Of a stretch of 33,188 bases of DNA, positions 934 through 22,832 are shown one piece after another. The translations under genes and the position numbers were made by a program. The stretch covers positions 1-33,188 of the forward strand of contig JADHWK010000023.1 in the NCBI GenBank assembly GCA_016783505.1, given 5' to 3'. Source of the stretch: Candidatus Zhuqueibacterota bacterium (GTDB taxonomy: Bacteria; BS750m-G25). Every line of letters starts with the position of its first letter. The first letter of the stretch is position 1. The notes beneath the pieces were generated by a model. The model worked only from the letters and a program-made list of their open reading frames with translations, had not been told where the DNA came from and did no database searches.

Positions 934-1176
934 CTGAAAATAGACCGCAGATTACACGGATGACACAGATTTACCCCTTTTAGATATTCAACCTTTAAGT
1001 ATCTACTATCTTACAAGGTAAAATTGTCTAACGGGGTGAACACAGATTTTTATACACGATTCTTGGATAATATTTAACCAAATAGCTTGGAACAATAGAA
1101 TTAACCCAATTATCCATTTATCCAAATATCCAAGAATATGTAATTTCGTCTGAGAATACATATTTTCATCCCCCTT

Positions 1177-1196
1177 CATCCCGAAGGTTCGGGATG
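1177..1196. repeat. Dispersed palindrome (TCCCGAA-type), copy 1
   Basis: A perfect inverted repeat, CATCCCGAA against TTCGGGATG with a two-base centre, extended by CCCC/GGGG flanks. It is one of at least seven intergenic copies of the same short palindrome in this window. There is no T-run directly after it, so it is not an obvious terminator. Confidence 0.7.
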
Positions 1197-1233
1197 GGGG
1201 TTTCATTAATATTCCCTGCATAACATAAATAAT

Positions 1234-1272
1234 AAAGCCCAGAGGCTTGAGTCGAAAATCTGGGCTTTTTTT
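1234..1272. terminator. Terminator-like hairpin downstream of the M29 peptidase gene
   Basis: Stem AAAGCCCAGA / TCTGGGCTTT with a 15-nt loop. A run of seven Ts follows on the plus strand, and a TTTATTATTT stretch follows on the minus strand. The M29 gene ends 17 nt away on the minus strand, so the hairpin most likely stops that transcript, and it could act in both directions. Confidence 0.7.
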
Positions 1273-1288
1273 GTTAAAGGTTTTAAGG

Positions 1289-2245: not shown

Positions 2246-2296
2246 ATCCTTAACCTCTCTATTTTCCATCGGATTTCTATAAACATAAGACCCAAT

Positions 2297-2668
2297 TTAA
2301 CGATAATTCCAAAACCACATATTATAATCTTCTATAAGCTGCTGATTTTTACCTTTTTGCTTCATTTCAACCTTGGCTAAAGGAATAGCAATTTTACATC
2401 TTCCCTGCTTCCCTTTACAAAACAATCCATAAAACTCAAGATCAGAGCACTCATCAATATCTAAAATGTCAGTAATTTTAATATCATAATGGATTTTCTC
2501 CAATGGTCCTGTTTCTTCAGGATACTTCGCATCAAAGGGAAATGATAAATTTTTGTTCAAATAATGATGATACACATTCAAAGTTTTCTCTGAAACTTTA
2601 GGAAGGTTTTCATCTTCTTTGACTTTTAAGATATGAGCTACTCGCTTTTCATAGTTTTCTATTGACAT
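2297..2668 (-). CDS. Conserved hypothetical protein (small, cytoplasmic)
   Basis: A 123-residue protein with no signal peptide or membrane segment. It has a charged N-terminal helix (EKRVAHILKVKEDENLPKVS), a central YHHYLNKNLSFPFDAKYPEE stretch and a distinctive C-terminus ending YNMWFWNYR. I recognise the pattern as a widespread uncharacterised family sometimes labelled calcium-binding, but I cannot support that function from sequence. AGAGG sits 6 nt before the ATG. It lies 52 nt downstream of the cupin gene on the same strand. It is clearly AT-richer than the M29 gene beside it, consistent with recent acquisition of the 2.3-4.5 kb block. Confidence 0.75.
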   Translation of the reverse strand: MSIENYEKRVAHILKVKEDENLPKVSEKTLNVYHHYLNKNLSFPFDAKYPEETGPLEKIHYDIKITDILDIDECSDLEFYGLFCKGKQGRCKIAIPLAKVEMKQKGKNQQLIEDYNMWFWNYR

Positions 2669-2720
2669 TGTTACCTCTTGGAAGGTGTAAGGCGAAGGTG
2701 ATGCCTAAATAAGATTCACG

Positions 2721-3068
2721 TTAAGATCGTATCATTATCAAAATCATCTTGAATTTCTTTACTGCTCTCAAAGCATGTGGTTGATTGGCTGGCATTATAA
2801 CCATTTCACCTTTTTTCAGGTAGAGAGGTTTTCCAGAGATAACAATTTCTGCTTCACCATCAAGAAGATGAACCAAGGCGTCAAATGGTGCTGTATGTTC
2901 ACTCAATCCTTGCCCCTCATCAAAAGCGAAAAAGGTCACTGTCCCTGTCTTTTTTTTAATTATCGTTCGACTCACTACAGAACCTTCTTGATAATCCGCC
3001 AAATCAATTAATCTTACCGCTTGCGCTTCAAGCTTTTTCATGCTTGTTCGTTCCTTATTATGATCCAT
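2721..3068 (-). CDS. Single-domain cupin protein
   Basis: 115 residues forming one small beta-barrel cupin. Motif 1 is near FDEGQGLSEHTAPFDALVHLLDG, with metal ligands most likely His, Asp and His. Motif 2 is GEMVIMPANQPHAL, with a conserved PxxxPH turn. Proteins of this size usually bind a metal and sense or convert a small molecule, and the substrate is unknown. The first ATG has GAGGTG 7 nt upstream. An internal ATG (MKKLEAQ) has its own AAGGA and would give a 105-residue product. The gene begins 35 nt after a GTTAGGC box read on the minus strand, an arrangement like an integron cassette. Confidence 0.82.
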   Translation of the reverse strand: MDHNKERTSMKKLEAQAVRLIDLADYQEGSVVSRTIIKKKTGTVTFFAFDEGQGLSEHTAPFDALVHLLDGEAEIVISGKPLYLKKGEMVIMPANQPHALRAVKKFKMILIMIRS

Positions 3069-3102
3069 TCTTTTTCACCTCATTATTCTTTCAAACGATT
3101 TC

Positions 3103-3213
3103 GCCTAACCTTCCCAGTATATGCGATGTTGCGACCGAAGGGAGCAATGTCCTGTCTGTCCTGAACCTATCCAAGGAAAGGCCAAGGAGCGTAGCGACGA
3201 TGCGTATATGCTG
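3103..3213 (-). repeat. attC-like imperfect inverted repeat upstream of the cupin gene
   Basis: Arm 1 (3115-3137) and arm 2 (3191-3213) form an imperfect inverted repeat around CAGTATATGCG / CGTATATGCTG, 53 bp apart. Read on the minus strand the element ends with GTTAGGC (3103-3109), a consensus attC end box, and the cupin gene starts just after it. The opposite end box is degenerate (GCGCGCG), so the attC assignment is tentative. Confidence 0.35.
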
Positions 3214-3277
3214 AAAGCGCGCGCTCTTTAATTTGTCTCAAGCGAAACATAGATGTTGAGCTTGAGATTTTCCGTAA

Positions 3278-4342
3278 TCAAAGGTGTTTCTTAAAAAAAT
3301 CAAGCTGATCGCTTACGCTTATCTCGAAGTTATCTCCAATATAAATATCAAAGTGACCGATTGAATAGTGCTTAACTTCTGCATATTTCCTCAATTCTTT
3401 TTCGGTTTCGGGGCTTATTGGAGCTAAGCTGTCATTATCACATATCTGAATCAGGATTGGGCAGTGTGCGTTCCGGGCGTGTTCGACCGGTTTGTATCCG
3501 TGTGACCGGAGAATGATACGAGCACAGACTTCGTTAATAAAATTCTCCGATGCAAGTTTCCCGTAGCCGTCATAAGCATCTGAAATAGGGAAAAAAGCAA
3601 AACTTCCAGGTTTCCCTACGATAGGTATTTTATGGGGCGAAAGACCGAAGCGGGATCTCATCATATCACGCTGTCCGTGAACAACCAGACGGAGAATGTG
3701 TCCGATGCCTAATTTTTTTAAAAACATTTTGTTTGAGGCACGACTATCCAGCCCTGGACATTGTGCGACTACACAGGCAATATTTTTATCTTTTGCAGCG
3801 ATTACAATACCATATCCACCGCTTGCAGAGGTTCCCCACAGAGCAATTCTTGCCGGATCAATCTCCTTGAGACCCCGAGCATACTCGATCGCTGCTGAAT
3901 AATCTTCCAGTTGGTACGGAATCAAAAGCAGCTGTCGTGGTTCCCCCTCGCTTTCACCAAAATGCCTGTAATCGAATGCAAGCACAGCAAACCCGGCTTC
4001 CTGATATCGAAGAGCATAAGATTCCATGATCATATCCTTGGTTCCCCCAAAACCATGTCCCATAATTATACATGGAACGGGAGCAGACAAATTCTCAGGT
4101 AGATACAGCCATGCGCTTAATGATGTTCCTTTAACTTGAAAAGTCACATTTTTTCTTGACTGGGGTGGTTTTGCATCTACCTCCTTGGTTTCTTGTTGCG
4201 CTATTACCAGGTGTTGCTTTGGAACCGAAAAGCCAGGGACAAAAGCCATAATAGCCACAATTGCTAGTTCAAGGACAAATAATCCAATAAGAATACCAAT
4301 AATGAGGCCAATGATTTGAAGAATCATTATTACTATTTCCAT
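3278..4342 (-). CDS. Membrane-anchored alpha/beta hydrolase
   Basis: 354 residues. A single hydrophobic segment at about residues 5-37 anchors the protein, followed by an alpha/beta-hydrolase fold. The oxyanion-hole motif is GHGFGG (95-100). The nucleophile elbow is WGTSASGG with Ser172, a GxSxS variant rather than strict GxSxG. The acid is probably the Asp in QICDNDSLAP, and the catalytic His is in SIGHFDIY near the C-terminus. The family includes acyl hydrolases and dipeptidyl-peptidase-like enzymes, so the substrate is unknown. A weak purine-rich SD precedes the ATG. Codon use is AT-rich like its cupin neighbour and unlike the GC-rich OPT gene upstream. Confidence 0.85.
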   Translation of the reverse strand: MEIVIMILQIIGLIIGILIGLFVLELAIVAIMAFVPGFSVPKQHLVIAQQETKEVDAKPPQSRKNVTFQVKGTSLSAWLYLPENLSAPVPCIIMGHGFGGTKDMIMESYALRYQEAGFAVLAFDYRHFGESEGEPRQLLLIPYQLEDYSAAIEYARGLKEIDPARIALWGTSASGGYGIVIAAKDKNIACVVAQCPGLDSRASNKMFLKKLGIGHILRLVVHGQRDMMRSRFGLSPHKIPIVGKPGSFAFFPISDAYDGYGKLASENFINEVCARIILRSHGYKPVEHARNAHCPILIQICDNDSLAPISPETEKELRKYAEVKHYSIGHFDIYIGDNFEISVSDQLDFFKKHL

Positions 4343-4581
4343 ATTATTTTCTTCTTCTATATTAATTTATACATATGACCTATTAAAAAATAAAAATAAA
4401 TAAAGAGTAATTCTAGTTATCCATAAACAGTAATTTTTTTACAAGGCCACGGATGGTCGAGCATCTTCCTCCTGCGCGCTTATTGCATATAACTATTGTA
4501 TTTACGAAACAAGTTTCGCCAATCCTTCCAATATAGCCTATATTGCGAAAAAAAGTTCGCTAATTCCCCTTAGCTGCAAAT
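4343..4581. other. AT-rich intergenic spacer with second copy of the 3.1-kb repeat
   Basis: No gene is seen. The segment 4514-4550 resembles 3100-3136: both carry TTCGCC, then CCTTCC, then an ATAT..GCGA block. Within it AATATAGCCTATATT is palindromic. The remainder (about 4350-4440) is strongly AT-rich and may hold the promoter of the hydrolase gene, but no clear -35/-10 pair is visible. Confidence 0.5.
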
Positions 4582-4974
4582 TTATGGGCCATTTATTTTT
4601 ATCTCCCTTTTTCTCCTCGCCGAACCTTCGACTTTTTCATGACCTGGTCCAAAAGATATAAATTTGTTTTTCAGTAATTTCTGAAGAAAAACTGTCAGCC
4701 GGGTTTCTACCGGTTCCACCCGTTCCCCAAACTTTTCCCTGAGCCGGTGAGCGATGTGGCCTCCCGGGGTTTTACCGTCAATGAGGGACCAGACCCGACT
4801 GCCAAACTCGTCTAAGTGCACCCGATAGGTTGAGGGTTTTATCCTGGCGGCCAGCCAGCGGCCAATTCTGTTGTTCTTATACCGGGGGACCAAAATGGTC
4901 ACTCTCCCATCTGACCTGTTTTCCCAATCCCGGATTCGGTGGGGCTTCACATCCATAAGGCTTAATTCTTCCAT
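4582..4974 (-). CDS. PqqD-family peptide-chaperone-like protein
   Basis: 130 residues. The central part (LDEFGSRVWSLIDGKTPGGHIAHRLREKFG) matches the winged-helix core of PqqD, where hydrophobic-x-W-x-L-I-D-G followed by a helix is typical. PqqD-family proteins bind precursor peptides and hand them to radical SAM enzymes. The many free-standing homologues with this layout have no proven partner. No radical SAM gene or precursor peptide is adjacent: the OPT transporter gene is upstream and the hydrolase gene downstream. A basic N-terminus (VPRYKNNRIGRWLAARIKPS) precedes the domain. No strong SD supports the chosen ATG, so the start is uncertain. Confidence 0.8.
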   Translation of the reverse strand: MEELSLMDVKPHRIRDWENRSDGRVTILVPRYKNNRIGRWLAARIKPSTYRVHLDEFGSRVWSLIDGKTPGGHIAHRLREKFGERVEPVETRLTVFLQKLLKNKFISFGPGHEKVEGSARRKREIKINGP

Positions 4975-5019
4975 GATTAGCGATTATCCCGAATCTGGAA
5001 ATTCAACAATTAATAATTC

Positions 5020-5140
5020 TGAATTGTTAATTGCTAATTGCTAATTGTTAAAACCTAAGCTCCAGCAGCAATCAGTCCCGAGCATTCGGGACAATCATCA
5101 ATCATTTCAGTCGCATTCGGTATGTTCCGAATCTGGGATT
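5020..5140. repeat. Dispersed repeat pair, copy 1 (partner at 9299-9405)
   Basis: About 120 bp. It begins with alternating TTAATTGCTAATTG units, passes through TAATTGTTAAAACCT and AGCAGCAATCAG, and ends with TCCGAATCTGGGATTA. Copy 2 has the same blocks in the same order. This copy contains a TCCCGAG..TTCGGGA palindrome (5075-5092) where copy 2 has AGCAATC tandem units. It lies directly beyond the 3' end of the OPT gene and touches its stop codon. Confidence 0.7.
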
Positions 5141-7163
5141 ATATCTCCCCCGGCTCGGCCATCTTTTTCCTCAGGTTTCTGACGGGTATGCTGATTAACA
5201 TATAAAAAACTAAGGCGAAGATGATAAGGGAAGCCCAGCCGCTCTCGGCGATAGATGGGAGCTTGACCTGGAGGATTACCAAAAAGGCCAAAATCACCCC
5301 GGTTAACGCCTCCCCGGCGATCAGTCCCGAGGCCACCAAGATGCCGATGTTTGAACCCCGGTTTTTCTGTTCCTCGTCGCCGGCCCGTTTATGGATGATC
5401 TTTTCGGCGATCCATTTGATGATGCCCCCCACGAATATGGCGGCGGTGGTTTTAAAGGGCAGATACATCCCCACCGCAATCAGCATCGGGGAGGGGGATT
5501 TGATAAGGATTAATCCCACCGAAAAGGCCATTCCCGCCAGCACCAGGGGCCAGGCCATCTCGCCGAGGACGATACCTTTAGCGAGCATGGCCATCAGGCC
5601 GGCCTGGGGGGCGGGGAGCTCGGTGCCGCCGATGCCCCCGGTGCCGCTGATGAGGCTGGCATCATGGAGGACGGATATGGGTATGATGAGGACAAAGGAG
5701 GCGACGATCACCCCGAGGATCTCGCCCACCTGCATCCGCCAGGGGGTGCCGCCCAGGATGTGCCCGACCTTCAGGTCCTGTATCATGTCCCCGGCGATGC
5801 CGGTGGCACAGCAGACGACCCCGGCTACCCCGAGCACTGCGGCGATCCCAGGTTTTCCCGTGACCCCCAAAAGCACCATCAGCAGGGCGGCCACGATGAG
5901 GGTGGACAGGGTCAGGCCGGAGATGGGGTTATTGGAGGAGCCGATCAGACCCACCAGGTATCCGGCTACGGCGGCGAATAGAAACCCGGCCAGCACCATC
6001 ACTAAGGCGGCGATTAAAGCCCCCCAGAAGTTCTGGGCGAAATAGTTATAGAGCACGGTGATGGGTATGACCAGGATGACGATGGCGGCGATGACCCAGG
6101 TGAAGGGGATGTCGAATTGCAACCGTGAGGGTTTTTCACCGGTTCTCTTCATGGAGCGCATGTCGGCGATGGCCTTGCCGATGCCGGCGGTGAGGTTTTT
6201 CCGAATGTTATACAGCGTATAGAAGGCCCCCACCAGCATGGCCCCCACGGCGATGGGCCGTACGATGGCCAGCCAGGAGGCGGTAGCCACATGCATCCAT
6301 CGCTGAACGAGTGAAAGTCCAGCCAGGTCCTTGAGGTTCACCATTGAGGCAATGGGTCCCTCCACCCCGTTCATAAAGATCACCAGGGGGATCAACAGGA
6401 GCCAGGCGAATATCCCCCCGGAGAAGACGATGGAGGCCAAGCGGGGGCCGATGATGTAGCCCACCCCCATTATGGCCGGGGAGGCTACCGGTGACTGTAC
6501 GGCCATTCCCCCCTTGAAGTTCATGGCCTCACCAAAGGGGGAACCGTCCCGGATGAACTGGATTTTAGAGGCTTTAAACGGTAACCACTGGGTGACGTAT
6601 TCCTTGAAAATTGTGATGCCATTAGAATTTTTTAATAGTTCGATGAGGGCGGAAATACCCATGGCACCAAAGAGGAATTTAGCCCCGGTCTCCCCGTGCT
6701 GTCCGGCTTTGTGTATCTCCGAGGCGGCCACGCTTTCGGGAAAGGGGAGGTCGGCCTCCACTACCAGGGTGCGGCGGAGCATGATGACAAAAAACACCCC
6801 AAGCAGCCCCCCGATTAGCATGATCATGGTGCCTTCCCAATAATTTAACCCTTCCCAGATACCGGCGATGACGAAGGCGGGTATGGTGAAAATCGCCCCG
6901 GCCACCAGGGCCTCCCCAACCGAGGCGGTCGTCCGGGCCAAGTTTTCTTCAAGAATGGAACCCCTCCAGATCCGGAAGAAGGCCATGGCCACCACCGCAG
7001 CAGGAAAGGTGGCGGCGATGGTCATACCGGCCTTTAATCCAACATAGGCATTAGCAGCCCCCAGCACACAGGCCATGATAACCCCCAGGATGAGGGCCCT
7101 TATACTAAACTCTCTCATGGACGTTTCTGCGGGAACATAAGGCTTGAATTCCTGATTACCCAT
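5139..7163 (-). CDS. OPT-family oligopeptide transporter
   Basis: A 674-residue polytopic membrane protein with about 16 predicted hydrophobic segments. The N-terminal signature NAYVGLKAGMTIAATFPAAV and the repeated glycine-rich segments (LMVLLGVTGKPGIAAVLGVAG, GEILGVIVASFVLIIP) are typical of prokaryotic OPT transporters. This family takes up peptides, or metal chelates in the YSL branch, using the proton gradient. Length agrees with the family. AAGGAG lies 7-8 nt before the ATG, and a good sigma-70 promoter sits about 50 bp upstream. High GC content matches the core genome. M29 aminopeptidase on the same strand could process imported peptides, which is inference. Confidence 0.9.
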   Translation of the reverse strand: MGNQEFKPYVPAETSMREFSIRALILGVIMACVLGAANAYVGLKAGMTIAATFPAAVVAMAFFRIWRGSILEENLARTTASVGEALVAGAIFTIPAFVIAGIWEGLNYWEGTMIMLIGGLLGVFFVIMLRRTLVVEADLPFPESVAASEIHKAGQHGETGAKFLFGAMGISALIELLKNSNGITIFKEYVTQWLPFKASKIQFIRDGSPFGEAMNFKGGMAVQSPVASPAIMGVGYIIGPRLASIVFSGGIFAWLLLIPLVIFMNGVEGPIASMVNLKDLAGLSLVQRWMHVATASWLAIVRPIAVGAMLVGAFYTLYNIRKNLTAGIGKAIADMRSMKRTGEKPSRLQFDIPFTWVIAAIVILVIPITVLYNYFAQNFWGALIAALVMVLAGFLFAAVAGYLVGLIGSSNNPISGLTLSTLIVAALLMVLLGVTGKPGIAAVLGVAGVVCCATGIAGDMIQDLKVGHILGGTPWRMQVGEILGVIVASFVLIIPISVLHDASLISGTGGIGGTELPAPQAGLMAMLAKGIVLGEMAWPLVLAGMAFSVGLILIKSPSPMLIAVGMYLPFKTTAAIFVGGIIKWIAEKIIHKRAGDEEQKNRGSNIGILVASGLIAGEALTGVILAFLVILQVKLPSIAESGWASLIIFALVFYMLISIPVRNLRKKMAEPGEI

Positions 7164-10960: not shown

Positions 10961-12406
10961 ATGTCCAAACTTTCCCGAAGCTTGCGGACTTCTTTTAGCC
11001 TGACCGATAGTCGAAAATTACTGGCCAACCTCCCATCGGTTGAAAGGATGCTTGTCCTTTGGGAAAAAGAGGGGCTAAAAAATTTTCCTAGGTGGGTGGT
11101 GGCTGAACTCATTCGGACCGAAATCGGCCAGGTTCGTGAAAAGGTGAAACGGGGAAAGCTATCCCGGGTTCCTGACGAAGGGGAACTTTTAGCTTTGGTG
11201 TCGGATAAACTATCCAAACTGTTCTCGCCCAGTCTGAGGAGGGTGATCAACGGGACGGGTATCATCCTTCATACTGGTCTGGGCCGGGCTCCCTTTCCCC
11301 ACGCCGTTCAAGAAAGTCTGGTTAGCCTGATAAATAGTTACACCAATCTGGAATTAGATATTGAAAGCGGCCGGCGGGGGGAGCGGATCAGGCACGTGAA
11401 AAAACTGCTTTGCCTTTTGACCGGGGCTGAGGCAGCGGCGGTAGTCAATAACAACGCAGCGGCTGTTCTATTGACGTTGAACACCCTGTCAAAAAGGAAG
11501 GAAGTCATCGTCTCCCGGGGGCAGTTGATCGAGATCGGGGGTTCCTTCCGCCTCCCTGACGTAATGGCACAGTCCGGGGCTAAGATGGTGGAGGTGGGTA
11601 CTACCAACCGAACAAGGTTATCAGATTACGAAAATGCCATTGGTCCAAGAACACGGGCTATCCTCAGGGTTCATCCCAGCAACTACCGGATATTGGGATT
11701 TACCCAGGAAGTGCCTTTGGAGGAGTTGGTTAGTCTAGGGGAAAAATACCAGCTTCCCATTATTGATGATTTGGGCAGTGGGGTGCTGGTAGACCTGAGG
11801 AAATACGGCCTGCCATACGAGCCGGTAGTCTCCGAGAGCATAAGGAAGGGGGCGGCGGTGGTTTGCTTTAGCGGGGATAAGGTCTTAGGTGGGCCCCAGG
11901 CTGGCATTCTGGTCGGAAAAAAAATCTATCTGGACAGGATTAAAAAGAATTCCCTGATGCGGGCGTTACGCTGCGGCAAGTTGACCTATGCTGTGCTGGA
12001 GGCGGTATTAAAGCTATATTTCGATGAAAAAAAGCTGGTATCCAACCACCCGGTGTTCAGGATGCTGACGGAATCGGCTGAGGACATAGGGCAAAGGGCA
12101 AAGTACTTAGTTGAAAGTTTAAAGTTAAAAATTAAAATTGATAAACTAATAATTAAAGTTGAGGATTCGGAAGCAGAAACAGGGGGAGGGGCGCTTCCGC
12201 TGGAGAAAATCCCCAGCAAGGCGGTTTCCATTAAACCCAAAAGGATTTCGGTTGACCGATTAGCCAAAGCCATGCGGCTAAACGAACCGCCGATTATCGG
12301 ATATGTGAAAGATGATAAATTTTATCTGAACATGAGGACGGTGAGGAATGATGAGGTGGGACTGATCAAGGAAGCTATCGAAAAAATATTTCTGGACGGC
12401 GGATAG
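10961..12406 (+). CDS. selA: L-seryl-tRNA(Sec) selenium transferase
   Basis: 481 residues, near the usual 460-480 for SelA. This PLP enzyme converts seryl-tRNA(Sec) to selenocysteinyl-tRNA(Sec) using selenophosphate. Visible features are the N-terminal helical domain (SLTDSRKLLANLPSVERML), the conserved INGTGIILHTGLGRAPF, AAAVVNNNAAAVLLTL, the TTNRTRLSDYENAI segment and the PLP lysine K307 in CFSGDKVLGGPQAG. GGAG lies 7-8 nt before the ATG. It abuts a decayed AT-rich gene upstream and lies on the same strand as selB, 1.1 kb downstream. A patch at 12116-12170 is unusually AT-rich (lysine/isoleucine-coded) but stays in frame. Confidence 0.95.
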   Translation: MSKLSRSLRTSFSLTDSRKLLANLPSVERMLVLWEKEGLKNFPRWVVAELIRTEIGQVREKVKRGKLSRVPDEGELLALVSDKLSKLFSPSLRRVINGTGIILHTGLGRAPFPHAVQESLVSLINSYTNLELDIESGRRGERIRHVKKLLCLLTGAEAAAVVNNNAAAVLLTLNTLSKRKEVIVSRGQLIEIGGSFRLPDVMAQSGAKMVEVGTTNRTRLSDYENAIGPRTRAILRVHPSNYRILGFTQEVPLEELVSLGEKYQLPIIDDLGSGVLVDLRKYGLPYEPVVSESIRKGAAVVCFSGDKVLGGPQAGILVGKKIYLDRIKKNSLMRALRCGKLTYAVLEAVLKLYFDEKKLVSNHPVFRMLTESAEDIGQRAKYLVESLKLKIKIDKLIIKVEDSEAETGGGALPLEKIPSKAVSIKPKRISVDRLAKAMRLNEPPIIGYVKDDKFYLNMRTVRNDEVGLIKEAIEKIFLDGG

Positions 12407-12722
12407 GATTAAAATTCAGCAAGTTTTAGTTTGCCAGTTCTATATAGTCGGTCGCCTGAACGAACCGATCGAAGCACGAGATCCTATAATCCTTACACTA
12501 TTAGGTAGATTTAGCGATAAGGCTAACTGGTCTAATAAAGCGAAGTTATCTAAAATCTATAAATCTACACTTTAAATTAAATCATTATTTAATTGAGCAA
12601 ACAAATTCCGCTAACCCATCCCGTAGGTTCGGGACTAAAACACAGAAAGGGAAGAATTAATTTATAGGTCCTAAATGTCTTCAACATTCGGCAATGTCAG
12701 ATAAAAAATAGAGGATAGTATC
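12407..12722. other. Intergenic region with an interrupted inverted repeat
   Basis: No gene is seen. I looked for tRNA(Sec) because of the flanking sel genes and found no acceptor/T-arm pattern. An inverted repeat GTAGATTTA (12505-12513) / TAAATCTAC (12560-12568) encloses a second stem GATAA/TTATC. A smaller TCGGT/ACCGA hairpin lies near 12450-12470, and a TCCCGTA..TTCGGGA palindrome is at 12619-12634. Confidence 0.5.
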
Positions 12723-13472
12723 ATGGTCAAATGGGCGGGAAAGATCATTGGGGGTGGCATTGGGTTTGCCCTGTTCGGACCTATCGGGATGATCATCGGG
12801 GGAATGTTGGGGGATAAGTTCGATAAGAAGGCCGAGTTGCTGAGCCTGTCGAGTCAGGGGCGGGGCTATGGTCCCCGTCCCCGGGGTAAGGTGGACCAGG
12901 GTTCCTTTGCCGTGACCCTTTTGGTACTGTTTGCTCACGTCAGCCGGGCTGACGGCAAGGTGACTTCAGCCGAAGTCCAGTTCGTTAAACGGTTTCTTAT
13001 TGACAAGTTCGGTCGGGTTGAAGCTGCCGACCTCATGCAGATATTCAAGGGGGTAGTGAACCAGCACTACCGGATTGAAGAGGTGGCCTGGCAGGTAAAG
13101 AACCAGATGGATTATTACTCCAGGCTGGAGCTGCTTCACATCCTGTTCGGCATCGCCAAGGCCGATGAACTCATCAGCCCCGGTGAGCTGGAAGCCATCC
13201 AGTTAATTTCCGATCATCTTGGGATAAAAGCCCAGGATCATCTATCCATTAAGAATATGTTCTTCAAAGAGGATAAATCGGATTATAAAATTCTGGGCGT
13301 TTCTTCAATAGCCACCGCAGAGGAGATCAAGCGCGCCTACCGGAATTTAGCCCAGAAATACCACCCCGATAAGGTCACCCATCTGGGAGAGGAGTTTCAA
13401 AAACTGGCTCAGGAAAAATTCGTCCAAATAAAAAAAGCCTACGAAAGCATAAAAAGGCAAAAAGGGTTTTAG
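12723..13472 (+). CDS. TerB-like / J-domain protein (DjlA-like co-chaperone)
   Basis: 249 residues in three parts. First is a glycine-rich hydrophobic N-terminus (GKIIGGGIGFALFGPIGMIIGG), probably membrane-associated. Next is a TerB-like helical domain at about 60-165 (VTLLVLFAHVSRADGKVTSAEVQFVKRF and LHILFGIAKADELISPGELE, with the paired acidic DG/DE turns of that fold). Last is a C-terminal J domain with YKILGVSSIATAEEIKRAYR and the HPD motif in YHPDK, which stimulates DnaK ATPase. The order matches DjlA. GAGG lies 8 nt before the ATG. It sits between selA and selB on the same strand. A direct role in selenoprotein synthesis has no sequence support. Confidence 0.88.
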   Translation: MVKWAGKIIGGGIGFALFGPIGMIIGGMLGDKFDKKAELLSLSSQGRGYGPRPRGKVDQGSFAVTLLVLFAHVSRADGKVTSAEVQFVKRFLIDKFGRVEAADLMQIFKGVVNQHYRIEEVAWQVKNQMDYYSRLELLHILFGIAKADELISPGELEAIQLISDHLGIKAQDHLSIKNMFFKEDKSDYKILGVSSIATAEEIKRAYRNLAQKYHPDKVTHLGEEFQKLAQEKFVQIKKAYESIKRQKGF

Positions 13473-13524
13473 GGGGAAGGAGCTTATTAGCTGGATAGTT
13501 GTAATCATTATATCAAGATAAGGG

Positions 13525-15417
13525 ATGTCTCACATTATCATCGGCACTGCCGGACACATTGACCACGGCAAAACGGAGCTGGTTAAGGCGTTGACGGGGA
13601 TGGACACCGACCGCCTGCCAGAGGAGAAAAAACGGGGGCTCACCATTGACCTGGGGTTTGCCTTCTACGGGGAAAACGCCGCCATTATTGATGTCCCCGG
13701 GCATGAACGGTTCATCAAGAATATGGTGGCCGGGGTGGCCACTATTGATTTGGTGCTGTTCGTTATCGCCGCCGATGACGGCATCATGCCCCAGACAAGG
13801 GAGCACCTAGATATTTTAAACTTATTGGGGGTAAAAAAGGGATTGGTTGCCATCACTAAGATTGATCTGGTAGAAAGGGATTGGCTGGATCTGGTGATTG
13901 ATGAGGTGCATAAATTTGTGGAGGGGACCTTTCTAGATGAAGCACCCATCCTCCCCGTGTCGTCAACAACGGGGGAAGGCATTGAGGCCCTCAGGAAGGT
14001 TCTGGATGGGGAATTGGCCAGGGCGCAAGCCAAACCCTTCCGCCAGCTATTCCGCATGCCCATTGACCGCGTGTTTACAATTAAGGGTTTCGGAACGGTG
14101 GTTACAGGAACCGTCCTGTCGGGAACGGTCAGGGTAGGGCAAACCCTGGAATTGCTTCCCCAGAGAAGGGAAATGAAAATCCGGGGGATTCAGAAGCACG
14201 GGAGGACCGCGGAGACGGCCCGGGCCGGGGATCGAGCGGCCCTGAATCCAATGGGGATCGGTAAGAACGAACTGGCCAGGGGGGATGTGCTGGCCCAGAA
14301 AGGCTATCTTAAGCCCAGTCCCTTTTTGGATGCTCGTCTGAACCTGTTAAAATCGGCCCGAGGGATGAAAAACCGCACCCGGGTGAGGCTTCACATCGGC
14401 ACCAAGGAAATTTTGTGCCGGGTAGTTTTGTTAGAAACGGACCGATTAGAACCCGGGGGGACGGAGTGGGTGCAATTTCTGCTGGAGAGCCCTTACGCTG
14501 CCATCCCCGGTGACGCCTTTGTCATCCGGAGTTATTCCCCCCAGCTCACTATCGGTGGGGGACGGGTTATTCATCCCCATCCACCCAAACACCGGCGTTT
14601 TCAAAGAGATGTATTGCAGTTTTTGCGAACCATGGCGGGGGGAAATCCCCGGGAGATCATCGAGGCGAAACTTATGTTGTCCCGGAAAAATACCCTTCTA
14701 ATGGCCCGCTTAGTGGAGGAGGGAGGGGTGGATCCCGATTTAGTTAAGACCATAATTGCTGAGTTGGTGAAAGAAAATATTATCCTTTCCCTGGATGATG
14801 AAGGAAAGATCCTGTTCCATCGGCAAAATATTAAAAGTGCTTCAGAAGAATTTATTCGCATTATTGAAAATTTCCATCGGGCCCATCCTGATCATCGGGG
14901 GTTGGCGCTGGCGGAGCTCAAAGCCAAGTTTAACCGGGAGGTTCATCCCGCCCTGTTTGAGAAAATCCTTAAAGACTTGGAAAAGGGGAGGAGGATTAAA
15001 CGAGAGGGGAATTTAGTACGGTTGGCCACCTACCGGGTGCGACTCTCGCCCCAGCGGGAAAAATTGATCAATCGAATTGAGGAAATTCTTTTGGATGGAG
15101 GGGTTCATCCCTCGGGGATCCAGGAAATAGCGAAGATGCTGGATACCCGGCCCGGTACTGTCAATGAACTGGCTACTATCATGCAGGATATGGGTAAACT
15201 AGCCCGGGTGGATAATTCTCATTTTTTCCATCAACGGATGATCGAGCAGGCCCGGGAGAAGATCTCCCAATTTTTAAATGAACAGGGTGAAGTTACCATC
15301 AGTGAGGTGGGAAAACTCCTAAATACAAGCCGAAAATATTCCGTTCCCCTGATGGAATATTTTGACGCCGTTGGCTTTACCGAGCGCAGGGGGGACGTAA
15401 GGGTAAAGAAGGGCTAA
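13525..15417 (+). CDS. selB: Selenocysteine-specific translation elongation factor
   Basis: 630 residues, typical of bacterial SelB. The GTPase domain opens with [11 protein letters not shown] (G1, about 7-17) and carries [18 protein letters not shown] (switch I), DVPGHERF (G3) and TKID (G4). Two EF-Tu-like beta-barrels follow, then winged-helix repeats in the C-terminal third (from about residue 390) that bind the SECIS hairpin of selenoprotein mRNAs. SelB delivers Sec-tRNA to in-frame UGA codons. It is 52 nt downstream of the J-domain gene. AAGGG is immediately before the ATG, which is closer than ideal. Neither selC nor selD is in the window. Confidence 0.95.
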
Positions 15418-16828: not shown

Positions 16829-16917
16829 GCTTAATAATTCCTTTCTTTTCGAAATGTTACATTACTCAAATTACATGTTATAACACGGCGTTTAGGCAGT
16901 ATCATAATATGTTAGTC
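16829..16917 (+). other. attC-like site 0 (start of array)
   Basis: The 5' box is GCTTAAT (16829-16835), the 3' box GTTAGTC (16911-16917). It is homologous along its length to attC X at 20854-20937, including an identical 24-bp block (16877-16900 against 20898-20921). The boxes are imperfect, so the call rests on this homology and on position directly between two genes. Confidence 0.5.
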
Positions 16918-16960
16918 CTATCAACTTGATTAGTTTCAAACCAAAATAGGAGGAACTACA

Positions 16961-18139
16961 GTGAAGGCAAGGAAGATTAACGAAAGTATCTACTGGATGG
17001 GTGCTATTGACTGGGATAGACGTTTGTTCGATTCTCTCATACCGCTTCCTGATGGGACGAGTTACAATGCCTACCTGGTTCAAGGAAGCGAGAAAACGGT
17101 ACTGTTAGACACCGTTGATCCCACCATGGTGGATGTTCTTCTGTCCCAATTAGCGAGCGTCCCAAAAGTTGATTACATTGTTGCTCACCATGCCGAACAA
17201 GACCATTCTGGGGCCATTCCCCACGTCCTGGAAAGGTACAAAGACGCAAAGGTGCTTATGACCCCCAAGGGGAAAGGGATGCTCATAGATCACTTGTCCA
17301 TTCCAGAGGATCGGGTGATCGCGGTTAAAGATGGGGAGGTTCTGTCGCTTGGCGACAAGACGCTGGAGTTCATTTTCACGCCCTGGGTGCATTGGCCGGA
17401 AACTATGGTCACCTATCTTCAAGAGGAGCGCATCCTGTTCAGTTGTGATTTTTTCGGGTCGCATTTGGCCACTACCGATTTATACGTTACCGATGAGGCT
17501 CGCGTGTATGAAGCCGCCAAGAGGTACTATGCAGAGATTATGATGCCCTTCCGCAAGGTCATCCAAAAGAACTTGGACAAAATCGGTAGTCGTGAAATCG
17601 CTCTGGTAGCGCCAAGCCACGGTCCCATCTACGACCGACCAGCTTTTATCATAAACGCCTACCGAGGCTGGATCTCGGAGGAGCCCCAAAACGTCGTAGT
17701 TCTCCCATACATATCCATGCACGGCAGTACCAAGAAAATGGTGGAATACTTGACCAGTGCGTTGACCGAAAGAGGGATCACAGTTTACCAATTTGACTTG
17801 GTCGTGACTGACATTGGAAAGTTGGCGATTGCTCTGGTGGATGCCGCCACCATTGTAATTGGGACGCCTACGGTTCACCTTGGGCCACATCCTCTTGTTT
17901 TCTATGCCGCACACTTGGCCAATGTTTTGCGCCCTAAACTAAAATTCGCCTCGATTATCGGGTCCTACGGCTGGAGCAGTAAAGCGGTTGAACAGATTGC
18001 CGGGTTGATTCCGAATCTGAAAGTAGAGATATTGAGTCCAGTACTCTGTAAGGGATTTCCCAGAGAGAGCGATTTTGATGCCCTGGACAAACTGGCGGCT
18101 GCCATTGCAGGCAAGCACAAGGAACATAACTTGATCTAG
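16961..18139 (+). CDS. A-type flavoprotein / flavodiiron protein (O2 or NO reductase)
   Basis: 392 residues. The N-terminal metallo-beta-lactamase-like diiron domain has HAEQDH at 77-82 (HxExDH), then His in PWVHWPE, Asp in SCDFFGSH and His in APSHGPIYD, the full ligand set of flavodiiron proteins. From about residue 250 a flavodoxin domain binds FMN (PYISMHGSTKKMV, GTPTVHLGPHP, GSYGWSS). No rubredoxin extension is present. Such cytoplasmic enzymes reduce O2 to water or NO to N2O, protecting anaerobes. The start is GTG with AGGAGG about 7 nt upstream. It lies between attC-like site 0 and attC A, so it is probably cassette cargo. Confidence 0.92.
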   Translation: MKARKINESIYWMGAIDWDRRLFDSLIPLPDGTSYNAYLVQGSEKTVLLDTVDPTMVDVLLSQLASVPKVDYIVAHHAEQDHSGAIPHVLERYKDAKVLMTPKGKGMLIDHLSIPEDRVIAVKDGEVLSLGDKTLEFIFTPWVHWPETMVTYLQEERILFSCDFFGSHLATTDLYVTDEARVYEAAKRYYAEIMMPFRKVIQKNLDKIGSREIALVAPSHGPIYDRPAFIINAYRGWISEEPQNVVVLPYISMHGSTKKMVEYLTSALTERGITVYQFDLVVTDIGKLAIALVDAATIVIGTPTVHLGPHPLVFYAAHLANVLRPKLKFASIIGSYGWSSKAVEQIAGLIPNLKVEILSPVLCKGFPRESDFDALDKLAAAIAGKHKEHNLI

Positions 18140-18164
18140 CGACACTTTTTCAAGATGGGAAGCG

Positions 18165-18295
18165 GCCTAACAAGCGGTTGCATCCGACCGCACTTTCGAG
18201 GTGGTTTTTGGAGTCTTTTTAGCATTTGGAAGGTGTCTTTCTGTGTTTCATCCGTCGTATGAGCCGCGCGGAGGCTGAGCTCCATTCCGTTATAC
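18165..18295 (+). other. attC site A
   Basis: 131 bp from GCCTAAC (consensus 5' box, 18165-18171) to GTTATAC (18289-18295). The inner arms CAAGCGGTTGCATCCGACCGC and GCGGAGGCTGAGCTCCATTCC are partly complementary in the manner of long attC sites. The next gene starts 24 nt beyond it. Confidence 0.65.
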
Positions 18296-18318
18296 CTATA
18301 AAAAATGGAGAAAATATT

Positions 18319-19491
18319 ATGTCTAAAATTAATAATTTATTTTTACTTCTCTTTGTTTCATTTATCATTTTTTCACATTATCTCTATGGACAATCACCAG
18401 AAAATACACCACAAAAAGTATATAGATACTGTTATGTGGTCAATTCTAAAGATTGGTATAAGAATCAGGGAAAATTGTGGAAATTAGAAATATCAAAAAA
18501 TCCACATAATGAAGATGCATGGTACAACTATTTTTTTGCAGCCAGATATGGGTGGGCAAATGTTAAAGGACAAACTAATACCAGAGAAGCGCTTATGGAT
18601 TCAATCTATAATGAAATGGGTAAAGCTATTCCGAATTCCTGGGTATATCATTATATACATTATTATAATTATGCCACTGATTTTTCTCGTCTTGAAAAAG
18701 CTTATCAAATTAATCCAAATAGACCTGATTTATATTGGGAATTTATAAAGGAATATACACTGACAGGACAGAAACACAAGAGCTCTGAGTTTTGCAAAAA
18801 GCTGTATGAGAGTAAGGATATTTCAACTGGCATTTATAATTTGAATTACAATATGTTGAATTCAACAACCAAAAATTCAATTTTATTTACAAATGGAGAC
18901 AATGACACATACCCTGCCTGGGTATTACAGCAAGCAAAAGGGATAAGAAAAGATGTATTAATCATAACAATGCACGGGATATTTTCATATCGAGATTATC
19001 TAAAATCAATTTTAGCTGATAAAGGTATCAATTTAAATATAGAAAAATTATCAAAAACCGACGTTACTTCATATTTTAATGCACTGGTAAAATCATTGAG
19101 AACAAACTATCCTAATATAATGATTCATATAGCCCGGACAGTTTATAAACCTTATTATGAAAGATTTAAGGATAAATTATACCTGACTGGATTTGTATTT
19201 ACGTATAGTGAAAAGCCTTTTAACAGTGATGAAAGTAATAGAAAGATAATTGAAAATGACCTTAGATTAGATTATTTAGATATTGATTGGTATGCTGATT
19301 TACATGTCTCAGAACCATTGGTGAATCAATTAAATCTAATGTATGTTGATCCTTCTCTAAAATTAGCTGAATATTATAATTTGAAAGGAGATATTAAATC
19401 TGCAATAAAATGGAAGAATAAAGCCTTATTCCTTTCAAAAAGAGCAAATGATGAAGATTTAATAAAAAAGATAGAAGAAAAGAATTGGTGA
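18319..19491 (+). CDS. Secreted protein resembling the soluble part of DUF2723 proteins
   Basis: 390 residues. A signal peptide (NLFLLLFVSFIIFSHYLYG) precedes a repeat-rich helical region at about 50-170 with TPR-like spacing (NPHNEDAWYNYFFAAR, NPNRPDLYWEFIKEY). It then has ILFTNGDNDTYPAWVLQQAK and GIRKDVLIITM. That NGDNDT..P..(L/Q)Q..GIR.DV pattern is familiar from the periplasmic half of DUF2723 (glycosyltransferase-like) membrane proteins of Bacteroidota. Here the membrane half is absent. GGAG lies 8 nt before the ATG. It is very AT-rich, unlike both neighbours. It is a cassette between attC A and attC B. Function unknown; Bacteroidota origin is inference. Confidence 0.75.
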   Translation: MSKINNLFLLLFVSFIIFSHYLYGQSPENTPQKVYRYCYVVNSKDWYKNQGKLWKLEISKNPHNEDAWYNYFFAARYGWANVKGQTNTREALMDSIYNEMGKAIPNSWVYHYIHYYNYATDFSRLEKAYQINPNRPDLYWEFIKEYTLTGQKHKSSEFCKKLYESKDISTGIYNLNYNMLNSTTKNSILFTNGDNDTYPAWVLQQAKGIRKDVLIITMHGIFSYRDYLKSILADKGINLNIEKLSKTDVTSYFNALVKSLRTNYPNIMIHIARTVYKPYYERFKDKLYLTGFVFTYSEKPFNSDESNRKIIENDLRLDYLDIDWYADLHVSEPLVNQLNLMYVDPSLKLAEYYNLKGDIKSAIKWKNKALFLSKRANDEDLIKKIEEKNW

Positions 19492-19499
19492 CAAATTTG

Positions 19500-19634
19500 G
19501 CATAACAATTGGCTCAAGCTGACCGCAAGGGCGATGGCGCGAATGGGACGTTTGGTGGTTTCTTTGAAGTTTTGTGCATAATTTAACATATTGATTACAT
19601 TATCCTTGCGGCAGCTTATTCAAAATCGTTAGGC
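19500..19634 (+). other. attC site B
   Basis: 135 bp from GCATAAC (19500-19506) to GTTAGGC (19628-19634). The reverse complement of the right end aligns with the left end over about 27 bp with scattered mismatches (AAC, ATT, AAGCTG and CCGC shared). The middle GGTGGTTTCTTTG recalls the central part of Vibrio-type repeats. It begins 9 nt after a stop codon. Confidence 0.8.
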
Positions 19635-19774
19635 GTGCAGGTCGTATTTCAACACCTGAATTTTTTTATTTTTGACATCAACATGTTTTAATCCTTCCTT
19701 GATTTTTCATAAGTTCAACAAGATATTAGTTTCAATTTCCGATCTGTAGTGTATTTTTGTTATTGGAGGAAGTA

Positions 19775-20554
19775 ATGAAAATTCCAATATATCAAGTTGA
19801 TGCTTTCACAGACAAAGTATTTGGCGGTAATCCAGCCGCAGTCTGTCCTTTAGATAATTGGGTAGATGATGAAATTCTTCAAGCCATTGCCGCCGAGAAC
19901 AACTTATCCGAAACAGCTTTCTTCGTTAAACAAGGCAATGATTTTGAGCTAAAATGGTTCACGCCAAAGACAGAGGTTGAATTATGCGGCCATGCTACCC
20001 TCGCTTCAGCCCACATCCTTTATAACCATCTGGATTACAAAGATCATCAAATAAACTTTATTACCAAAAGCGGCGTTTTAAAGGTTACTAAAAAAAATGA
20101 TATTATTTCCATGAATTTCCCTTCAACAAAACCGGTGCCGGTTGAAATTCCAAAAGAACTAACCAATGGTCTTGGATATGAACCTTCTGAAGTACTCAAA
20201 TCAAGGGATTATCTCGCTGTTTTCAAAGATGAAGAAACAATCCTTTCAATCAAACCGGATTTTGAAATTCTAAAGAAACTGGATTGCCTGGGGATAATTG
20301 TCACCGCCAAGGGAAACAACTCTGATTTTGTATCGAGATTCTTTGCACCGGGGGTGGGCATTCCTGAGGACCCGGTAACGGGTTCAGCCCATGTTACTTT
20401 AGTACCTTATTGGTCTGAAAAATTGAACAAAAAATCTTTGTATGCAATTCAGATGTCAAAGCGTAGGGGTGAATTATTTTGTGAAGATTTGGGGGAGCGT
20501 GTATTGATTTCAGGAAAAGCGGTCACATATTGTGAAGGATCAATTGTATTATAG
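19775..20554 (+). CDS. PhzF-family phenazine biosynthesis-like epimerase/isomerase
   Basis: 259 residues, the usual PhzF length. Family motifs: QVDAFTDKVFGGNPAAVC at the N-terminus, ENNLSETAFF with the presumed catalytic Glu46, PKTEVELCGHATLASAH, and GIPEDPVTGSAH in the second half. The fold is two diaminopimelate-epimerase-like halves. PhzF itself isomerises a phenazine precursor, but most cassette-borne or orphan members have unknown substrates, and no phenazine genes are nearby. GGAGG lies 5-6 nt before the ATG. A roughly 140-bp leader after attC B separates site and gene, longer than in the other cassettes. It ends 18 nt before attC C. Confidence 0.9.
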   Translation: MKIPIYQVDAFTDKVFGGNPAAVCPLDNWVDDEILQAIAAENNLSETAFFVKQGNDFELKWFTPKTEVELCGHATLASAHILYNHLDYKDHQINFITKSGVLKVTKKNDIISMNFPSTKPVPVEIPKELTNGLGYEPSEVLKSRDYLAVFKDEETILSIKPDFEILKKLDCLGIIVTAKGNNSDFVSRFFAPGVGIPEDPVTGSAHVTLVPYWSEKLNKKSLYAIQMSKRRGELFCEDLGERVLISGKAVTYCEGSIVL

Positions 20555-20572
20555 ATTGCGTTCTCTTTTGAC

Positions 20573-20653
20573 GGCTAATGAGATCAAACCAGTTTTTTCT
20601 ATTTTGTAAGTACATCGGGCGTTATTAGCGGATGATGCCCGGTCCCGTTAGGC
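20573..20653 (+). other. attC site C
   Basis: 81 bp from GGCTAAT (20573-20579) to GTTAGGC (20647-20653). The reverse complement of the right end matches the left end over about 14 bp with transitions only (TAATGAGATC against TAACGGGACC). An inner ATCGGGC / GCCCGGT pair forms the apical stem. Confidence 0.72.
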
Positions 20654-20694
20654 CGTATTATCCATTTTCAGAGAATAGAAAAAGAAGCATAAGG

Positions 20695-20826
20695 ATGACT
20701 GATAACAAATTCAATTTAAAAACTATTTGAGAAGGAATAGCTGGAGCGGCCGCCATCGCTGTCACCTTTGAGACGCCCATGTTTCGGCCCTGGCGTATTA
20801 GGTGGGGTGCTACCGATTCAGGTTGA
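20695..20826 (+). pseudogene. 5' remnant of an SRPBCC-like gene, copy 1 (in-frame TGA, truncated)
   Basis: ATG at 20695 opens MTDNKFNLKTI, then TGA, then EGIAGAAAIAV.. PMFRPWRIRWGATDSG and a stop. The RPWR.RWGATD pattern matches the N-terminal region of SRPBCC-fold proteins, whose roughly 150-residue domain should follow and is missing. Copy 2 at 22729 has GGA where this copy has TGA, so the stop is a nonsense change rather than selenocysteine. It follows attC C immediately, as a cassette gene would. Confidence 0.65.
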
Positions 20827-20853
20827 TACCCTGCGAATGGATTAATGCTTTTT

Positions 20854-20937
20854 CCTTAACTAATTTTTTCCGAATCGCTTGATTACCAAAATGACGTGTT
20901 ATAACACGGCGTTTAGGCAGTCCAATATAAGTTAGGC
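20854..20937 (+). other. attC-like site X
   Basis: 84 bp from CCTTAAC (20854-20860) to GTTAGGC (20931-20937). It contains a 12-bp palindrome GTGTTATAACAC and the 24-bp block shared with site 0. The SDR gene starts 36 nt after it. Confidence 0.55.
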
Positions 20938-20972
20938 GGTTTTGCTTATTTAATTGAATATTGGAGATAGTT

Positions 20973-21731
20973 ATGGATTTTTCTGGTAAATATGCATTAG
21001 TTACTGGAGGTTCCCGGGGAATAGGTAGGGCTTGTGTTGAGGCCTTTGCAAAGCATGGTGCACGTGTCGCTATTAATTATCACCATAATGCAGATGCAGC
21101 ACAAGATACTATTGACAGATTGCCAGGTGGTCCGCATTTGATGATAAAGGCGGATGTATCGGATCCTAATTCAGTGAAAGAGTTGATTGAAAGAGTTACG
21201 AATGATTTTGATGGTTTAGATATCGTTGTGAATAATGCTGGTATATCACAGAAACATCCAATAGATGAGATTGAGTATAATACATGGCAGGAAGCCTGGC
21301 AGCGAGTTATGGCGGTTAATCTATTCGGTCCGGCAAATGTTATGTACTGGGCAGCCCAATACATGATGAAAAGGAGTGGTGGTCGCATAGTCAATGTTTC
21401 GTCACGTGGTGCATTTCGAGGTGAACCTGAACAGCCTGCATATGGTGCTAGTAAGGCCGCTTTGAATTCAATGAGTCAGTCATTGGCTCAAAAGTTAGCC
21501 AAATACAATATTTTCATCGGTGTAGTTGCTCCTGGATTTGTTGAGACCGATCTCTCATCAAAATATTTATCAGGTCCGGAGGGAGATAATATAAGGAATC
21601 AGAGTCCGCTGGGTAGAGTTGCACGACCGGAAGAAGTGGCATATGCAGTTTTATTTCTTGCTTCAGAGGGTTCAGAATATATGACTGGTGCGATCATAGA
21701 TGTAAATGGTGCGAGTTATTTACGTTCTTAA
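20973..21731 (+). CDS. Short-chain dehydrogenase/reductase (FabG-like SDR)
   Basis: 252 residues of a classical SDR. The cofactor motif TGGSRGIG is at 11-18, NNAG near residue 89, the catalytic Ser in NVSSRGAF, and YGASK holds the Tyr-Lys pair. The C-terminal PLGRVARPEEVAYAVLFLASEGSEYMTGAIIDVNGA is typical of the FabG-like group. An Arg following the TGGSR position and Asn-Tyr after strand 2 (INYHHN) suggest NADP(H). It probably reduces a ketone or oxidises an alcohol, and the substrate is not predictable. The ATG at 20973 is preferred over TTG at 20961 because GGAG lies 6 nt upstream. It is a cassette between sites X and D. Confidence 0.92.
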   Translation: MDFSGKYALVTGGSRGIGRACVEAFAKHGARVAINYHHNADAAQDTIDRLPGGPHLMIKADVSDPNSVKELIERVTNDFDGLDIVVNNAGISQKHPIDEIEYNTWQEAWQRVMAVNLFGPANVMYWAAQYMMKRSGGRIVNVSSRGAFRGEPEQPAYGASKAALNSMSQSLAQKLAKYNIFIGVVAPGFVETDLSSKYLSGPEGDNIRNQSPLGRVARPEEVAYAVLFLASEGSEYMTGAIIDVNGASYLRS

Positions 21732-21769
21732 GTGTATCAGTATTTAACTTATAATCAGGTATCTAAACC

Positions 21770-21832
21770 GCTTAACCAGTCGCTTCACCTGATCCCGAAG
21801 GATGGGGACAGGTGAGCTCCGAACCGTTGGAC
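21770..21832 (+). other. attC site D (consensus short attC)
   Basis: 63 bp from GCTTAAC (21770-21776, full RYYYAAC match) to GTTGGAC (21826-21832, full GTTRRRY match). The inner stem TCACCTG (21785-21791) / CAGGTGA (21809-21815) is perfect, extended by TCCC/GGGGA. Bases left unpaired between the outer and inner stems fit the extrahelical bases of attC sites. Confidence 0.85.
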
Positions 21833-21849
21833 GTCAAGAAGAAACGGTC

Positions 21850-22629
21850 ATGAACGAGATACATGAGGCCAATAGAAAGGGCTGGGATGCTGCTGCGTTA
21901 GCAGGGCTTGGTCAGGCGGATCGCACGATAGACTGGCGACGTTGCCACCGCGATGCACGCCTCGTGTTCACTGAGCAGGAGCTAAAATGGCTTGGCAATG
22001 TCAGCGGCAAGAGGGTATGCGTTCTGGGAAGCGGAGACAACCTTGCCGTTTTTGCTCTCGCGGGGCTGGGGGGCGAGGTGACCTCTGTTGACATTTCGCA
22101 GGAGCAACTCAACATTGCCAACAAGCGAGCGTCCCAACTCGGGCTGTCCATCGCCTTCGTCCAAGCGGATGTCATTGATCTGTCCCCACTGGACAGTAAA
22201 TGTTTTGATGTGGTCTACACGGGTGGCCATGTTGCAGTATGGGTGTCTGACCTGCAGAAGTACTACAGTGAGGCAGCTCGCATTCTGAAACCCCGCGGAC
22301 TGTTCGTTGTCAACGAATACCACCCTTTCCGGAGGATATGGAAGGAATCGAAGCATACCCTCGAGGTTGCATTCAGCTATTTTGATCGCGGCCCACATCG
22401 ATGGGACAGATCGGAAGATATCCCGGGCGCAGAACCGGGGTCGTTGCCCGCGTACGAGTTTCATTGGACTGTCAGTGAGTTCTTAGCAGCAGTAGTGGAT
22501 GCAGGATGCGAGTTGTTATTGGTGGATGAATTCGGTGATGAACCAGAAGCATGGGAAATCGCTCCTTTGGCAGGATTGCCTCAATTCTTGTTGATAGTCT
22601 CTAGAAAGAAGGAATGTCCGAAAACCTAA
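21850..22629 (+). CDS. Class I SAM-dependent methyltransferase
   Basis: 259 residues. The SAM-binding motif I is VCVLGSGDNLAVFALAGLG at about 57-75, the motif II acidic residue is in VTSVDIS, motif IV in FDVVYTGGHVAVW, and post-motif LKPRGLFVVNEYHPF. An N-terminal helical region (EANRKGWDAAALAG) and a C-terminal half with FHWTVSEFLAAVVDAGCELLLVDEFGD resemble Methyltransf_11/25 small-molecule enzymes. The substrate is unknown. The ATG is 18 nt after attC D and lacks a strong SD. The gene's TAA stop lies inside the 5' box of attC E. It is GC-richer than the neighbouring cassettes. Confidence 0.88.
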   Translation: MNEIHEANRKGWDAAALAGLGQADRTIDWRRCHRDARLVFTEQELKWLGNVSGKRVCVLGSGDNLAVFALAGLGGEVTSVDISQEQLNIANKRASQLGLSIAFVQADVIDLSPLDSKCFDVVYTGGHVAVWVSDLQKYYSEAARILKPRGLFVVNEYHPFRRIWKESKHTLEVAFSYFDRGPHRWDRSEDIPGAEPGSLPAYEFHWTVSEFLAAVVDAGCELLLVDEFGDEPEAWEIAPLAGLPQFLLIVSRKKECPKT

Positions 22630-22687
22630 TGCAGCCGATTTGTCTCAGGCCATGCGGCCTGACAAACGGCTGATCAGGGTGTTAGGC
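22624..22687 (+). other. attC site E (overlaps upstream stop codon)
   Basis: 64 bp from ACCTAAT (22624-22630) to GTTAGGC (22681-22687). Arms 22632-22651 and 22656-22672 pair as CAGCCG, TTTGT and CAGGCC blocks, leaving one A and a CT unpaired on the left arm and a 4-nt loop. Long stem plus extrahelical bases is the hallmark of a folded attC strand. Confidence 0.85.
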
Positions 22688-22832
22688 CGTCTTATCTATT
22701 TTCAGAGAATTGAAAAAGAAGCATAAAAATGGCGGATAACAAATTCAATTTAAAAAATATTGGAGAGGGAATAGCTGGGGCGTTTGCCATCGCCGCCGCC
22801 TTTCTAACGCCCATGTTTCGGCCCTCTAAAGC
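22688..22832 (+). pseudogene. 5' remnant of an SRPBCC-like gene, copy 2 with shared cassette leader
   Basis: This segment is highly similar to 20654-20800 from the attC end through the leader, the ATG (22729 here) and the first 34 codons (MADNKFNLKNIGEGIAGAFA..), up to PMFRP. After that the two diverge abruptly: this copy continues into unrelated sequence holding a TCCCGAA palindrome. An open frame runs on to 22941, but its tail has no protein character. Both copies are therefore broken descendants of one cassette. Confidence 0.6.

Follow-up and report, generated by a model that had tools for sequence, protein, structure and literature searches.

Evidence for a Short Integron Cassette Array without an Integrase among Chromosomal Genes of a Deep-Branching Uncultured Bacterium

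The stretch of DNA analysed here (contig C13, 33,188 bases, referred to below as the window) almost certainly carries a genuine CALIN, that is, a short, truncated cassette array that lacks an integrase and sits amid chromosomal genes. Its best extent is about 16836-22825, and its neighbours are chromosomal, with a radical-SAM gene on the left and an amidase-like gene on the right. A CALIN has at least two attC sites on one strand less than 4 kb apart and no associated integron integrase gene. In this array, four covariance-model matches lie on the plus strand with gaps of 0.8-2.1 kb, and the TIGR02249 integrase profile had no match on C13, with every protein of the genome bin falling below its cut-off. 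Of the parts of a complete integron (intI with its family-specific domain, attI and a Pc promoter), the one trace was a relic of intI, which lies on a different contig; no attI or Pc promoter was identified. We observed directly the attC sites, their orientation, the cassette organisation, a repeated cassette bounded by R', the relic, and that the contig has no intI.

Just left of the array, at 10961-15417, the window also holds a SelA-like gene (recognised by eye) and a SelB gene. The pair suggests that the organism uses selenocysteine. No tRNA-Sec was found in the window, and an Rfam scan of the window yielded nothing relevant.

attC Sites in the Array

We built attC covariance models from known sites, namely those of plasmid-borne class 1 integron cassettes and of arrays that neighbour intI in other genomes, and searched both strands. 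Model R1 contained 15 sites, all from outside this genome, and model R2 contained 30, including sites on other contigs of this genome and none from the window. The arms were aligned with N-filled loops; MAFFT applied to untrimmed attC misaligned them. Covariation strongly backs the R2 structure, with 86.7% of cells paired (21.7-38.6% when the partners were slid); it shows 87 double-sided changes, where shuffling would lead one to expect 33. With filters off, R2 gave four plus-strand matches in the array, at E 6.5e-10 to 2.2e-3:

18165-18295, + strand: attC, R'' GCCTAAC, R' GTTATAC, long variable terminal part; R2 26.0 bits, E 2.8e-4; arm-and-pairing score 34.8
19500-19634, + strand: canonical attC, AAGCTG A CCGC / GCGG CAGCTT, R' GTTAGGC; R2 49.0 bits, E 6.5e-10
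21770-21832, + strand: short attC (63 nt); R2 42.5 bits, E 2.5e-8; R1 E 0.001
22624-22687, + strand: attC with a strong hairpin and atypical R'' spacing; R2 22.3 bits, E 2.2e-3; fold z -4.45

The next-best R2 match was the reverse strand of 19500-19634, at E 0.24. The sites at 18165, 19500 and 21770 have paired R''/R' and L''/L' arms, an unpaired extra base and a variable terminal part, and in the predicted fold of 19500-19634 both R''/R' and L''/L' close. Arm spacing in the array sites is canonical, e.g., GCATAACAATTGGCTCAAGCTGACCGC...GCGGCAGCTTATTCAAAATCGTTAGGC. R1 found 21770, matched 19500 only in part and missed 18165, because it could not span the long variable parts. An independent scorer of arms and pairing, trained on the 15 outside sites, gave 49.7, 36.6 and 34.8 for three array sites. 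Among 150 dinucleotide-shuffled copies of the window and in control contigs totalling 1.26 Mb, scores that high turned up at most 0.03 times per 33 kb. None of 1000 shuffled versions of the 5.9 kb around the three sites reached their scores.

The initial annotation had counted seven attC or attC-like elements in the array. Four of them were matched, all on one strand, by a model that contained no window sequence, and two belong to the variant family described below. The remaining one is degenerate and matched no model.

Cassette Genes and a Repeated Gene-Less Cassette

Single plus-strand genes of differing base composition had been proposed to lie between the sites, and this is what we see. 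There are five genes, all on the plus strand, and the distance from stop codon to attC is -6 to 38 nt:

16961-18139, + strand: cassette gene 1, flavodiiron protein (metallo-beta-lactamase-like and flavodoxin domains); Pfam ODP E 5e-27
18322-19491, + strand: cassette gene 2, 389-aa protein with a signal-peptide-like start, 28.6% G+C, without a family
19775-20554, + strand: cassette gene 3, PhzF family; PF02567 E 6e-62, TIGR00654 above cut-off
20973-21731, + strand: cassette gene 4, short-chain dehydrogenase/reductase (SDR); PF13561 E 4e-60
21850-22629, + strand: cassette gene 5, SAM-dependent methyltransferase; PF08241 E 4e-18

Their G+C contents, in order, are 49.8, 28.6, 39.1, 42.3 and 53.3%, set against 45.0% for the window. 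The flavodiiron assignment made from the bare sequence was borne out by the Pfam match above and by PDB 1ycf (E 2e-65, residues 6-383); the diiron ligands, HxExDH followed by His/Asp/His, are present by eye, and the protein had no viral match. The protein of cassette gene 2 matched no Pfam or NCBIfam family and no plasmid protein. Its motif NGDNDTYPAW is reminiscent of the tail of Bacteroidota DUF2723-type proteins. Plasmid matches to the methyltransferase were distant only. The cargo is metabolic or without a known family, as the initial annotation had supposed for the flavodiiron gene, and is not of the resistance type.

One unit of the array, cassette X, carries no gene, and part of it recurs at the right edge:

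20647-20930, + strand: cassette X, gene-less unit with an open reading frame broken by a stop; repeat D1
22681-22825, + strand: second copy of cassette X, truncated 5' part at the right array edge; repeat D1, 86% identical

Both copies of D1 (145 nt), at 20647 and 22681, have the R' core GTTAGGC as their very first bases, just where a cassette boundary is expected. The matching 3' part of cassette X lies at the left edge, and both edges of the array are partial cassettes. We considered whether integration of a circle had split cassette X between the edges, and this is unneeded; loss of neighbouring cassettes suffices.

A Family of Variant attC-like Sites

The other three sites have an R' and a degenerate 5' arm, and their best model match was at E 4.8:

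16836-16917, + strand: variant attC-like site with TGTTATAACA core at the left array edge, forming the 3' part of a unit like cassette X; R' GTTAGTC at 16911-16917
20571-20653, + strand: degenerate attC-like site, outer R''/R' stem ACGGCTAAT / GTTAGGCCGT, R' GTTAGGC at 20647-20653
20857-20937, + strand: variant attC-like site closing cassette X, R' GTTAGGC at 20931-20937; covariance model E 4.8

The covariance model did not recognise three of the seven as canonical attC, and this counts against the CALIN reading. The site at 20571-20653 folds with the R''/R' outer stem and without a canonical L''/L', and had no covariance-model match. The site at 16836-16917, also without a match, is 81% identical over 58 nt to 20864-20921. 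The TGTTATAACA core recurs in eight copies on six contigs: two each on C13 and C30, and one each on C23, C37, C53 and C72. Members of this family have an intact R' and a weak R'', and the covariance model does not accept them. On C13, C30, C37, C53 and C72 they lie at the position expected of an attC, between single genes, with R' (GTTA) facing the next gene in the same orientation as the neighbouring canonical attC.

The likeliest reading of the TGTTATAACA sites is a subfamily of attC-like elements specific to this lineage. A fuller proposal would make them a distinct attC subfamily of this lineage, with a conserved palindromic tip and a weak R'', used by a former or hidden IntI in a genome that kept dispersed cassettes after integrase loss; we regard this as possible though doubtful. 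Since the family is common to six contigs, it also argues that these come from one organism and are not stray contigs.

Arrays Elsewhere in the Genome

Many such arrays are scattered over this genome, in which either the integron system has decayed or the integrase was missed by the assembly. Counts of attC for the whole genome come from model searches together with the stretches that we inspected. Across the bin, R2 gave 16-18 sites on 12 contigs (18 at E <= 1e-3), most of them in its own training set, and further attC are present on at least 11 contigs besides C13. R1, trained without any site of this genome, gave five sites at E <= 0.01, on C39, C17, C2 and C30. Rows of genes and attC like that on C13 were seen in the inspected stretches of C17, C30, C39, C44, C53 and C72. 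By attC matches (16), the bin ranked fourth among 140 genomes, and the top three all have intI.

Some of these loci have features of their own. The minus-strand array at C30 1547-7586 mixes canonical attC (1547, 4837 and 5823) with TGTTATAACA-type sites (2992 and 7565), and its cassette unit at 3053-4765 resembles, by eye, glutaminyl-tRNA synthetase, an unusual cargo. On C39, the minus-strand array at 535-6070 has four or five attC, one of them near-perfect (4479-4541), and carries several lipoprotein-like small proteins. Another genome of the searched set had ten attC matches and no TIGR02249 match (E <= 1e-40), a second CALIN-rich case.

A candidate-phylum chromosome, the setting suggested for the DNA, is compatible with our comparisons, in which none of 145 genomes shared more than the domain. 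Homologues of the radical-SAM gene (at most 66% identity, no genome of the same phylum being among those compared) never had the flanking gene order of C13.

Integrase Search

No intI was found on the 33.2 kb contig and no intact copy in the 2.51 Mb bin. The bin is in 89 contigs and 59.9% complete, and the absence of an integrase is provisional because an intact copy may be missing from it. There is a relic at C44:2911-3190, which preserves family residues 1-55 and 262-304 in two adjoining frames. It is frameshifted, and about 200 residues (about 56-261) are deleted. Against the intact IntI of another genome, the two parts are 66% identical over 58 aa and 88% identical over 42 aa. The relic adjoins a PDZ/DegP-like gene, and a cassette array on the same strand follows downstream of it. 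Pseudogenes of intI are common, making up nearly a third in one survey (PMC2426708). Both the relic and the incompleteness of the bin fit the earlier suggestion that the integrase was lost or lies outside the window.

Other recombinases in the bin were considered and rejected as intI. Full-length genes on C36 and C87 and fragments on C82 and C62 matched integron integrases weakly (25-47%), compared with 66-88% for the relic. The C36 and C87 recombinases look like ordinary Xer-type enzymes.

Origin of the Array

We infer past IntI activity, loss of mobility in cis and expression of the cargo. Each cassette is one gene plus one attC hairpin, and IntI would have captured it when the folded bottom strand of the attC recombined at G^TT of R'. 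Most probably the array was left stranded once intI decayed or became separated from it. A rearrangement may have brought it to its present position as a block, or insertion at secondary (attG-type) sites may have put it there. The array would now be static in cis, and IntI supplied in trans could still excise or copy its cassettes. A study of archaeal integrons describes CALINs as mobilisable only in trans (PMC9668308).

The array might instead belong to a still-working integron, with an intact intI somewhere in the 40% of the genome that was not assembled, or be a displaced fragment of a larger sedentary chromosomal integron, with shuffling in trans continuing. The incomplete and fragmented bin, its 12 contigs with model-confirmed attC and the partial cassettes at both array edges all favour this, and the IntegronFinder authors note that draft genomes inflate CALIN counts (PMC9024848). 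However, the sole intI found is dead, and the array lies inside its contig with unrelated genes on both sides and therefore was not merely split from intI by assembly. We consider a working integron a serious possibility, if on balance the less probable state. A different history would have cassettes inserted one by one at non-integron attG-type sites, with the small arrays arising by dispersal and not by the break-up of one integron. Such insertion is a described IntI activity (Loot et al. 2024, cited in PMC12901181), and there are single-attC loci among housekeeping-looking genes (on C2 beside a DnaB-like gene, and on C73). The left edge of the array, however, has an attC-like site instead of a cassette abutting a bare GTT of the chromosome, and we think this history unlikely.

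It is very improbable that the inverted repeats are REP/MITE-like elements or terminator hairpins in ordinary gaps of a normal row of genes. The TGTTATAACA family, a dispersed palindrome in eight copies, speaks for such elements, but its members sit at cassette junctions with R' co-oriented with the neighbouring canonical attC on five contigs. The canonical sites differ in sequence yet retain the R/L architecture of attC with covariation, and terminator-like sites are not in excess.

Relation to Known Cassette Arrays

The locus resembles a CALIN as IntegronFinder defines it, including one gene per attC, but departs from it at three of the seven junctions, which are either degenerate or members of a palindromic attC-like family specific to the lineage. 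With the sedentary chromosomal integrons of Vibrio and Xanthomonas it shares heterogeneous cassettes, a gene-less cassette and a host-typical attC subfamily beside diverse ones; unlike them, it has no functional intI or attI that we could find, and the arrays are short and spread over at least 12 contigs. CALIN-rich archaeal MAGs offer a similar setting: they too come from uncultured lineages, and a single MAG can hold numerous attC on numerous contigs (as many as 107 attC, more than 18 contigs; PMC9668308). Here the lineage is bacterial, the sites are fewer and a dead intI relic is visible.

CALINs and CALIN-rich MAGs are already known, and among complete genomes CALINs occur about as often as complete integrons do (PMC9024848); this case adds a somewhat unusual attC-like subfamily and a visible dead integrase. 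The practical lesson is a modest one, given how common CALINs are and how many MAGs have already yielded them. With this finding the range of cassette arrays takes in a deep-branching, uncultured bacterium. Its genome combines numerous arrays with a conserved attC subfamily and a dead integrase, a combination that bears on how CALINs form and persist.
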